A stretch of 64,000 bases of DNA. It comes from Thermoplasmata archaeon. Its GTDB lineage: Archaea > Thermoplasmatota > Thermoplasmata > Thermoplasmatales > Thermoplasmataceae. The stretch lies in contig JAKBQY010000059.1 in assembly GCA_021835025.1 (NCBI GenBank), positions 44,036 to 108,035 of the forward strand, given 5' to 3'. Shown one piece after another: positions 9,949 through 29,523 of this stretch. The translations under genes were made by a program, and so were the position numbers. Every line of letters starts with the position of its first letter. Position 1 is the stretch's first letter. Under the pieces are notes generated by a model, which made no database searches, was not told where the DNA came from, and was given only the letters and a program-made list of their open reading frames with translations.

Positions 9949-9994
9949 GCATTTATAAAAATGTTTCCGGAAATGTCCAAAATAGTTTTTTTAT

Positions 9995-10264
9995 CACAGT
10001 GAGCGGGAAAACCCACCCCATTTATGGGTGGGATGAAAGCGAACCTTTTTATATCACAGAAAAATAGAGTTCCTGTCAACTGGTAGACATAATGAAAGAA
10101 GGTCGGATCACATATATCTCCATGTATGCCTGTGTCCATAAAGTCGAATGGCTGAGCATGGAGGGCAAAGTACCTTCGGGCCGAGGGGAATGCAAGCCTG
10201 TGGAGACTCCGCCAGTAGCCTTTGAAGCAGGAAGCCCATGAATTCATTCGTGGGAGGAGGTCAC
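9995..10264 (+). mobile_element. TnpB-less IS200/IS605-type derivative (solo element A) with terminal hairpins and TnpB C-terminal tail remnant
   Basis: Left end CACAGTGAGCGGGAAAACCCACCCCATTTATGGGTGGGATGAAAGCGAACC; right end GAAGCAGGAAGCCCATGAATTCATTCGTGGGAGGAGGTCAC; one frame reads MYACVHKVEWLSMEGKVPSGRGECKPVETPPVAFEAGSP*. Confidence 0.8.
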
Positions 10265-10558
10265 GAGATCTATCTTTGATATATAGTACGTAAATAAGTT
10301 GAAAAGTCTTCCTTCATAAACGGTATACATTTCGTGCGTGTATTAACATATTTATAGTTGTTTAATTTATAATGGACCTTTTCTAAAAACCTCACAAATT
10401 TATCTAATTCTTAAACGGTGTGTATATACAAAATCCGTTAAAATATACGTTTCAAAATTGTTTATTTTAAATAAAAAATCATCTTTTAGGTTAATAAAAA
10501 ATGACAATGAAGAATGGTAATATGGATTATTAAGTGAGTAACATACTACCATGACTAA

Positions 10559-10574
10559 ACAGTAGATCAAAAAT
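10559..10574. repeat. Left copy of 16-nt inverted repeat ACAGTAGATCAAAAAT
   Basis: Exact inverted copy at 10937-10952. Confidence 0.8.
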
Positions 10575-10599
10575 CACCTTCAAACAGGCTATTTGACGG

Positions 10600-10855
10600 A
10601 ATTAAACTTGTAACAAATGGATTAATCTTACCAGTGATGCTGATACTAAAGTTTTCATCACATTAGATATTATCCCAAATGCTGGTGATGATATTTATCA
10701 GAACCCAGAGATTGTAATGCAGGATTGCAAGATAAAAGTAGAGGAACTTAATGCATGGCTTCTTAGATGTGATTTTAGCAAAGAATTTCCTGGTAATCTT
10801 GTATCCGGTTTCGATCCTTCACCTCTTCGTAAAGAATTTCAATATATCCTTTGAT
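10600..10855 (+). pseudogene. transposase-like relic (frameshifted)
   Basis: LFDGIKLVTNGL then, in another frame, SDADTKVFITLDIIPNAGDDIYQNPEIVMQDCKIKVEELNAWLLRCDFSKEFPGNLVSGFDPSPLRKEFQYIL*; family not certain. Confidence 0.45.
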
Positions 10856-10936
10856 TACAGGATTGTGTTTGTTGCAAATATGTACAAAATTCCGCTCTTT
10901 TTGTTTCTATCACACAGAGAAATGTTGCCTGACTAA

Positions 10937-10952
10937 ATTTTTGATCTACTGT
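10937..10952. repeat. Right copy of 16-nt inverted repeat (ATTTTTGATCTACTGT)
   Basis: Reverse complement of 10559-10574. Confidence 0.8.
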
Positions 10953-12589: not shown

Positions 12590-12905
12590 AGTTCGATGTT
12601 TATCTTGTTACATTGGGTATTTTCGGTGATGAAGATAACACAGTCAATAAAGTTATGCAATTCGCAAATCCATCCGAGAAATAAGAGAACACAGGAGGTT
12701 ACAGGCATACTCGATATGTGGTCATAGGCTAAAAATAGATCACAATGAAGGAATATTTAATTGTGAATGGATAATCTCTCGATTGATAGGGATCTTAATG
12801 CATATATAAATATTTTAGAAATTAATGTACCTGTGGAATGCAGGGAATATATGCCTATGGGCACCAAAACCTCTACTTTTATACGGGGACCTTCACGGTC
12901 TTAGC
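12590..12905 (+). pseudogene. tnpB relic (C-terminal zinc ribbon, frameshifted)
   Basis: YSICGHRLKIDHNEGIFNCEW, then in another frame IDRDLNAYINILEINVPVECREYMPMGTKTSTFIRGPSRS*. Confidence 0.6.
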
Positions 12906-27950: not shown

Positions 27951-28284
27951 TGCTAATACACCAGATGATATATAAGTACTGCATGTTACTTATAGTTTAA
28001 TATCTATAATATCTATTTATAAAATGTATATAACAATACTATCCTATCACTACTAATCGATATAGTCATAAGATGAAAGAGATAATTGTTATATGATTTA
28101 AGCTGAATGGTAAATTATGTGCACTTGTTAACACGATTCCTTAAAAATTCTTTTTTTGATAAAAATTTTGGAAAAAAGTGGTAATGGACAATTCCTAAAT
28201 TACTGCTTTTAAAATCAAAAATCTGATAAAAATGGATACCGTTACATCAGAGTGGAATTTGCATTCCTTATAGTGGGGGTGATA

Positions 28285-29523
28285 TCATAGTACCATGTCC
28301 TCAATCTTTGTTGTTCTATATTTACCATTGTATGTATTTGTCATCCTCTCACCATTGTAAAGTTTCGTTGTTTTCTCATGATTGTATCTTGCAGCAACAA
28401 CTCTTCCTATGGAATCTCCCTTCATGATCCCTCCACCAGTTGTGCCTGAAACTATAACCATATTCAACGCATTGAAAATATACGGCATAAAGTCTATGGT
28501 ATTGTACGAGTAATAACCCGCCCATGATGAGGTTATTTTTGAGTTTTGAAATGCAGGAAAATAAGTATCAAAAATGGGTTTTATATTATATGTATAGAAT
28601 TCCGGTTCCGGTTCAGGTTTCTCGGTAAACGAATAATCTCTGTTAATATCATCGGCAAGACTAGTCCAGAAGGCAGATGCCTGCGGGTACGGTCTGGCAT
28701 ATACACCTGAAGGAAAAATAGTGAATGGAAACACTCCAGAATCATTGAATTCATTTTTATTTATTATTTCTTTTATGCCCGGACTTGTGAGCTGAAATAT
28801 CTGCCTTTTCTTCGGTCTTAAATGAGAGTCTATACCTATGGGGTCTAGCAGATCAGTTGTCCACACATCTGTGCATAGTACAAAAAAGTCCGAATATATC
28901 TTTTCCTTTGGTGTTTCAATGTACTTTATTGATGATTTCTGCCAGTTAAATGGTTCACCTGGATAGTTAAGTGAATTTTCAGGTTCAATGCCAAGTTTTT
29001 TAACCTCTGTGTTGAATTTAACTTCAACTCCCATCTGTATTAATTCGTTGTAGTAATACTGAGACATTAAATCCGGTTCTATTATGCCTGCATTTGAATC
29101 AATAATTGCAGTTTTTATTGAATCAATATCCATGATTTTTTTTGTTTCCCCACTTATTTCCATATTGAATATTTTTGATAAATCCTCATAAATAATCTTT
29201 GAATGCGGGTATTTTGAAACAAAATCCTCATCTTTTTCACTGTCGAATAAGAAAAGATATCCGCAGAATTTCATCCCAAGATCAATGTTCAAATCATTCT
29301 GAAGATGTTTGTAGAAATCTATTGAAGCCTGTGCCATGATCTGATTTTCCCGAAGTGAGAAAAAATCCCTGAAAGCGGCCGCACTTTTTGCAGTGTTTCC
29401 CTGGGAAAATGTACTTGCTTTTTCAACAACGAGCATTTTTAGGTCAGGGTATCTTTTTTTCATATGGTATGCCGAGGTTAAACCGGTAATACCAGCTCCA
29501 ATAACAATCACATCATATTTCAT
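28285..29523 (-). CDS. FAD-dependent oxidoreductase (DAO family); start MKYDVIVIGAG at 29523
   Basis: YDVIVIGAGITGLTSAYHMKKRYPDLKMLVVEKA Rossmann motif; C-terminal VSGTTGGGIMKGDSIGRVVAARY. Confidence 0.87.
   Translation of the reverse strand: MKYDVIVIGAGITGLTSAYHMKKRYPDLKMLVVEKASTFSQGNTAKSAAAFRDFFSLRENQIMAQASIDFYKHLQNDLNIDLGMKFCGYLFLFDSEKDEDFVSKYPHSKIIYEDLSKIFNMEISGETKKIMDIDSIKTAIIDSNAGIIEPDLMSQYYYNELIQMGVEVKFNTEVKKLGIEPENSLNYPGEPFNWQKSSIKYIETPKEKIYSDFFVLCTDVWTTDLLDPIGIDSHLRPKKRQIFQLTSPGIKEIINKNEFNDSGVFPFTIFPSGVYARPYPQASAFWTSLADDINRDYSFTEKPEPEPEFYTYNIKPIFDTYFPAFQNSKITSSWAGYYSYNTIDFMPYIFNALNMVIVSGTTGGGIMKGDSIGRVVAARYNHEKTTKLYNGERMTNTYNGKYRTTKIEDMVL

Follow-up and report, generated by a model that had tools for sequence, protein, structure and literature searches.

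A gene-less IS605-type element of Thermoplasmata whose conserved RNA core probably serves a parasite of TnpA and TnpB

In a stretch of 64,000 nucleotides from a Thermoplasmata archaeon (contig JAKBQY010000059.1; referred to here as 'the window', meaning that stretch at its full length) there is a 270-bp unit, 9995-10264 on the forward strand, which carries no gene but nevertheless has the ends of an IS605-type element. The question raised by this locus is what such a unit is for, if for anything. That is, is it a passive leftover of a tnpB element, or might it instead encode a guide-type RNA, i.e., an omegaRNA, upon which a TnpB supplied in trans could act? The original prediction, made from the letters of the window, leaned toward the latter. 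The unit described there, with its left hairpin and with its right hairpin followed by AGGAGGTCAC, was recovered at exactly those coordinates. The arms of the left hairpin (10012-10032, +) are CCCACCC (10012-10018) and GGGTGGG (10026-10032), while the right hairpin (10235-10254, +) is CCCATGAA-TTCA-TTCGTGGG, with double changes in 5 of its 7 pairs, and AGGAGGTCAC then ends at 10264.

The limits of the element are based on 72 distinct near-full-length copies, gathered from its own genome and from relatives. Immediately to the left is the pentanucleotide TTTAT (9990-9994, +), which is TAM-like and which would serve as target site, being TTTA(A/T) in 60 of the 72 copies and a near-match in those remaining. 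Sequence to the left of this pentanucleotide is random. The right boundary is sharp, with GTCAC giving way at once to random sequence, and TTTA(A/T) is not repeated on that side, i.e., there is no target duplication. Palindromes are present near the termini, though by inspection the termini are not inverted copies of each other. A classical MITE is ruled out, as both terminal inverted repeats and target duplication are absent. The element is instead a complete non-autonomous IS200/IS605 element, or PATE (palindrome-associated transposable element). That is, it has no transposase gene and is too short to encode one, it inserts 3' of a short, fixed target that is not duplicated, and its ends are those as well of IS605-type elements carrying either tnpB or tnpA plus tnpB in the same genome (L042, L037, L035, L039). 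The ends are of the IS605 family, and the alternative raised along with the original prediction, that they might belong to some other family, is not borne out. PATEs are known from Haloquadratum walsbyi (PMC3119063) and a PATE-like element from Halanaerobium (PMC7290912). These too are gene-less, possess near-terminal palindromes as in IS605, lack terminal inverted repeats, and are moved in trans, with some having arisen from IS605 elements through loss of the core; the element of Halanaerobium also retains a tnpB 3' end together with the right end.

The element's own genome (1.68 Mb, 65 contigs) contains 49 matches, which range from 100% identical and full-length down to partial pieces (best 1e-158), which is well outside chance expectation, and which correspond to an estimated ~40 copies, full or partial, as some copies yield two pieces. 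A DNA match is present in 42 of 77 genomes of the same family, end-only matches counted in. In several genomes near-identical copies (96-99.6%) are found in different flanks, which implies recent mobility. A search for empty sites in two congeners revealed two left flanks that are well conserved in one of them (G002), neither with a collinear right flank, and there is in that same congener one unoccupied TTTAAC target, with a left flank that is 87% identical and only that left flank collinear.

What might be moving such an element? As originally predicted, no tnpA or tnpB body exists within or beside 9995-10264. There also is no tnpB body upstream of any of the 72 copies, nor any tnpB signature within the ~1.5 kb fetched from each side of 20 weaker or remote core loci. 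Looking for intact elements with the same ends, as had been proposed along with the original prediction, was fruitful, with intact tnpB genes found in the genome along with one tnpA-plus-tnpB copy with matching ends. A single full-length Y1 transposase (tnpA) is present, with tnpB adjoining, plus a dozen tnpB elements or fragments. The tnpB elements that are without tnpA have both ends in common with the gene-less element; with L042, the left end is 98% identical over 57 bp and the right end 85% over 41 bp. The tnpB gene is broken in L042 and full-length in L033, L035, and L037. Resident TnpB proteins possess all three expected Pfam domains, and the L033 protein, which is the one that was compared with solved structures, matches ISDra2 TnpB at about 1e-54. 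The sole full-length tnpA copy may itself be immobile, as another IS splits its left end. As almost every genome of the family has tnpB (72 of 77), co-occurrence of tnpB with the core is only weak evidence; a core match is absent from all five of the tnpB-less genomes, though these are small numbers.

The case for a guide-type RNA begins with its predicted fold. An alignment of 53 copies supports ten helices, these being the two end hairpins along with P1, P2, P3, P4, P5, P6, P7, and P8. Over 55 base pairs, 92.3% of cells are canonical, versus 37-47% if the structure is slid by 1-3 columns (36-48% for the whole structure when slid). Double-change cells number 269, as against 105 after shuffling and 15-64 after sliding, these being counts from related sequences with helices chosen on the same alignment that scores them. 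Such named-structure controls (shuffled or slid) were adopted because relatedness swamped a plain ranking of column pairs by covariation. The long-range helix P1, for example, the 5' strand of which (10079-10084, +) pairs with 10211-10216, is 95.6% paired, with double changes in 3 of 6 pairs and 57 double-change cells. Judged by these compensatory changes, the core is a conserved RNA which has been kept across many genera.

From a different perspective, however, a structure of this sort might be conserved as single-stranded DNA rather than as RNA, i.e., for the sake of recognition by TnpA. It is well established that IS200/IS605 TnpA recognizes single-stranded terminal hairpins. Nonetheless, it is just those terminal hairpins which vary in sequence from genus to genus, with good conservation instead over the internal ~165 nt. 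In addition, G-U pairs are frequent (e.g., columns 193-277 of alignment A1), which is typical of RNA, and ends and targets persist in deletion variants that have lost a large part of the core. Conservation as DNA consequently seems very improbable.

A covariance model of the core (R1), of the kind suggested with the original prediction, scores 187 bits at 9995-10264, this copy being part of the training set. R1 has matches in 58 of 400 genomes of the class, representing 21 genera and including other families of the order, with strong matches in another family of the same order (G285, G411). The weakest matches, those in other families of the class, are probably to ordinary tnpB omegaRNAs. A known Rfam RNA, including the self-splicing introns of IStrons, was considered and rejected, as no family matches at gathering scores and a relaxed threshold gives one match at chance level.

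What sort of RNA is it, then? A second covariance model (R2) was built from 23 tnpB 3' ends alone (alignment A3), the structure of which covaries by itself. R2 matches 10162-10264 (+) at 69 bits (E=1e-20), as well as two more places in the window and 22 of 22 further tnpB-less loci tested. By this tnpB-only model the last ~100 nt of the element are homologous to tnpB omegaRNA. The omegaRNA-like right end of the original prediction thus stands, with the refinement that the conserved RNA is larger than was supposed, having as well a pseudoknotted 5' domain of ~90 nt. The helices of the 3' domain consist of the P4 hairpin (10173-10187), P5 (10197-10201/10227-10231), P6 (10205-10208/10217-10220), and the right-end hairpin (10235-10254). 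In a profile search, tnpB elements align with the gene-less element in two places, its left end (about model positions 2-66) and its final ~75 nt (190-265), and a few of the matches, which are weak, extend further into its 3' half.

The loop of P4, GGCC (10179-10182, +), is predicted to form a pseudoknot with GGUC (10259-10262), directly before the guide, and this is 93% paired across 53 copies. The fourth of these pairs is C-G in 46 of 53 gene-less elements and A-U in 21 of 23 tnpB omegaRNAs, and it is because of this double change that the right end reads GGAGGAGGTCAC in gene-less elements versus GGAGGATGTCAC in tnpB elements. As the pseudoknot is nearly invariant within the gene-less elements alone, i.e., without covariation there, its support is this switch as seen against tnpB omegaRNAs. 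In our view the C-G/A-U switch is the best single evidence that the RNA would still fold as a guide scaffold. The layout is that of the ISDra2 omegaRNA pseudoknot, in which the stem 1 loop is paired with the nucleotides that immediately precede the guide (PMC10097598). By analogy with the ISDra2 reRNA (PMC8612924), the predicted guide would be the first ~16 nt of the right flank (10265-10280, +). Consistent with that position, the flank directly 3' of the right end is different for every insertion among the 72 copies. Resemblance to the ISDra2 omegaRNA/reRNA (PMC8612924, PMC10097598) includes a stem-1-like hairpin with a loop pairing with pre-guide nucleotides, a guide which would be the right flank, a target motif at the left end, and a 3' domain homologous to that of local tnpB omegaRNAs. 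The present RNA differs in being encoded without tnpB, apparently from its own promoter, and in having the additional pseudoknotted 5' domain, which pairs with a loop of the stem-2/3 region.

A conserved scaffold in combination with a guide that is different at every insertion also is what might be seen were the RNA to bind TnpB as a decoy or regulator, that is, either sequestering TnpB or directing it to flanking host sites. The extra 5' domain, as a matter of speculation, could in that case raise affinity or block cleavage. The guide position along with the TTTA(A/T) motif are kept exactly as self-targeting requires, however, and conserved guides are not seen. Decoy or regulatory action therefore is viewed here as quite unlikely.

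The 5' domain (10074-10167, +; ~90 nt) consists of covarying long-range and pseudoknotted helices. These are P2 (10074-10077/10164-10167), P3 (10118-10125/10156-10163), the P7 pseudoknot (10104-10112/10131-10138), which crosses P3, and the P8 hairpin. Through P1 this domain is tied to the P6 loop, and in most tnpB omegaRNAs that place is occupied instead by a hairpin with a GCAA-like loop. In ISDra2, cleavage does not depend on RNA lying upstream of the 116-nt scaffold (PMC10097598). By profile search, the tnpB elements examined showed no P2, P3, or P7, nor the P1 5' strand. An apparent 130-nt match to the tnpB element L209 is weak, the sequence of that element having just the 3' domain in common. 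Among the full-length cores sampled, none is next to a tnpB body, and descent of the element as a relic of some tnpB whose 3' end holds the whole core was rejected, there being no tnpB beside any core copy examined.

Upstream of the 5' domain, in the left end of the element, is a putative archaeal promoter (10039-10054, +), consisting of a BRE-like GCGAAC and a TATA-like TTTTTATAT. The TATA-like score peaks, over 53 copies, 22-25 nt upstream of the first conserved helix of the RNA core, and this is the spacing that is expected for an archaeal promoter.

Might a protein rather than an RNA be the conserved product? The original prediction noted a frame that still encodes a TnpB C-terminal tail, and such an open frame (...KVEWLSMEGKVPSGRGECKPVETPPVAFEAGSP*) indeed is present; it is not, however, maintained as a protein across the 72 copies. 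Most copies do have an open frame, roughly 40-160 codons long, and it is this which speaks for a stand-alone short protein. Against it, start and end points of the frame vary between copies, about ten of the 72 copies are without a frame bearing the tail motif, and amino-acid identity does not exceed DNA identity. A conserved protein product was rejected on these grounds, i.e., of a frame that varies in its limits, that is lost or broken in several copies, and that is never joined to a tnpB body, and as an explanation it has next to no probability. The frame resembles a TnpB tail because the omegaRNA overlaps the end of tnpB.

A less extravagant possibility is that of an ordinary PATE, that is, an internal-deletion relic of a tnpB element which is moved by TnpA in trans and in which the omegaRNA part is passive. 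PATEs of similar size with tnpB 3' remnants are in fact known (PMC3119063, PMC7290912), and core-deleted copies that possess ends and targets exist within the element's own genome. At least five such copies (L014, L018, L022, L026, L027) share a deletion between GCCTGTG direct repeats, which takes out P4 together with the greater part of the 5' domain's 3' side, with target and at least one end retained. This deletion may reflect either repeated origin or the spread of a single deletion. Mobility as a consequence may not need an intact RNA, though later decay of these copies is also possible. A mere remnant nevertheless would not be expected to display 55 base pairs, 92% canonical cells, and many compensatory changes across many genera. 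Nor would it be expected to carry a 5' domain that is absent from every tnpB element examined, nor a core that outlives several replacements of its ends. Passivity of the omegaRNA part is for these reasons considered unlikely.

Replacement of ends is seen as follows. Gene-less elements of this genome have two end types, 'CCCAC' and 'CCCCTTC'. For one end type the best match is resident L042 or L039 in 6 of 10 copies, the other four being near-ties with other genomes, while for the other the best match is resident L037 in 4 of 4 copies. In G033, similarly, a resident tnpA/tnpB element provides the best left-end match for 9 of 9 copies, with this comparison informative for the element's own genome and for G033. 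A tree of 61 cores has at least 3 changes of the 'CCCAC' end type on well-supported branches, and own-genome copies with 'CCCAC' ends are nested, with moderate support, in a group that otherwise is 'CCCCTTC'. Most simply read, the elements have acquired new ends several times by recombining with resident tnpB elements, a source which is suggested by the near-identical left ends, and these changes apparently follow the resident tnpB elements. Apparently it is the RNA core, then, which is the inherited unit, with ends that are replaceable and which perhaps track whichever transposase is locally active. The window holds a second full element of the family, L025 (26259-26524, -; R1 168.5 bits, R2 65.4 bits), which is of the other end type (CCCCTTC / CCTCTTTCGAAAGATAGGGG) and the left end of which is nearest to resident tnpB element L037.

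Taken with its conservation over many archaeal genera, the above suggests a gene-less parasite that borrows both the transposase and the RNA-guided nuclease of others. More specifically, the element is probably an IS605-type PATE with an omegaRNA-type payload, a parasite in trans of TnpA and TnpB that targets its own donor joint. TnpA from a tnpA-plus-tnpB element would both excise and insert the gene-less element in trans. A promoter in its left end would give rise to an RNA about 190 nt long, extended by a guide copied from the right flank, such that the RNA of each copy would be a guide for that copy's own donor site. A resident ISDra2-like TnpB would load this RNA in trans and then cut the empty donor joint left by the element itself (TTTAT plus right flank), with repair from a sister copy after that cut restoring the element. 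The ends, targets, omegaRNA homology, and fold are those parts of this scheme that rest on sequence, while transcription, loading, cleavage, and benefit to the element are parts that we infer. Donor-joint cleavage by TnpB has been put forward as a model for the retention of IS605 elements (PMC8612924), and the proposed function here is the same, except that the nuclease would come from another element.

A broader and more tentative version, which we hold as possible but somewhat doubtful, is that of a dedicated trans-acting guide RNA within a widespread archaeal family. The 5' domain would permit this RNA to be made and loaded without a tnpB message, the TnpB of several IS605 lineages would be hijacked, ends would be swapped so as to follow an active transposase, and the guide RNA itself would be the heritable unit.

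How much of this is new? That omegaRNA-only elements possibly are served in trans reportedly has been raised already in bacterial IS605 work. Archaeal IS200/IS605-associated omegaRNAs (sotRNAs) have been described in Halobacterium, though these non-coding RNAs overlap tnpB genes whereas the present RNA stands alone (PMC12558985). For PATEs, no conserved RNA fold is described in the available portions of the two reports (PMC3119063, PMC7290912), while here there is an RNA core with its own 5' domain over many genera; also in distinction to PATEs as so described, in the present family ends are replaced and the core stays. A search of openly licensed literature found no description of this gene-less family. 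PATEs as such are known, that is, and it is a conserved, extended omegaRNA which appears to be new in them. New relative to the literature searched, then, is the combination, within one gene-less family, of a guide-type RNA maintained through compensatory changes across many genera, a 5' domain peculiar to it, and ends that can be replaced.

TnpB omegaRNAs usually overlap tnpB coding sequence, making constraint on RNA versus protein, or guide action in trans, hard to separate. In a gene-less family the guide scaffold evolves free of any protein, and those constraints are separated. The family in this sense is a natural test of the exploitation of TnpB in trans and indicates which parts of the scaffold matter, and its structured 5' domain may be relevant to how guides are stabilized and loaded. 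The family also suggests a route by which a guide RNA may leave its nuclease gene, a step needed toward systems such as Cas12.

Other elements and remnants are found nearby or in relatives. A third tnpB-less element in the window, L024 (32576-32806, +; R2 58.4 bits), is by its sequence a chimera, with the left end and 5' part of the gene-less family joined to a tnpB-type omegaRNA having a GCAA-loop hairpin. A different tnpB-less element, of ~240 bp, is present in G025 (L066, at C23:103662-103895, and eight other places), with a left end as in the 270-bp family and another omegaRNA-like core (R2 = 60.6 bits). Weak covariance-model matches in the window at 28170-28288 (+; E 0.002) and 12770-12890 (+; E 0.02) may be either decayed omegaRNA remnants or due to chance. 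Lastly, the window at 10560-10940 has a stretch bounded by inverted CAGTAGATCAAAAAT ... ATTTTTGATCTACTG, a relative of which breaks up the left end of L035, a tnpB element, and a stretch with a similar terminus occurs inside the split left end of L031, the tnpA-plus-tnpB copy. This and the related stretches look like remnants of a separate IS family.
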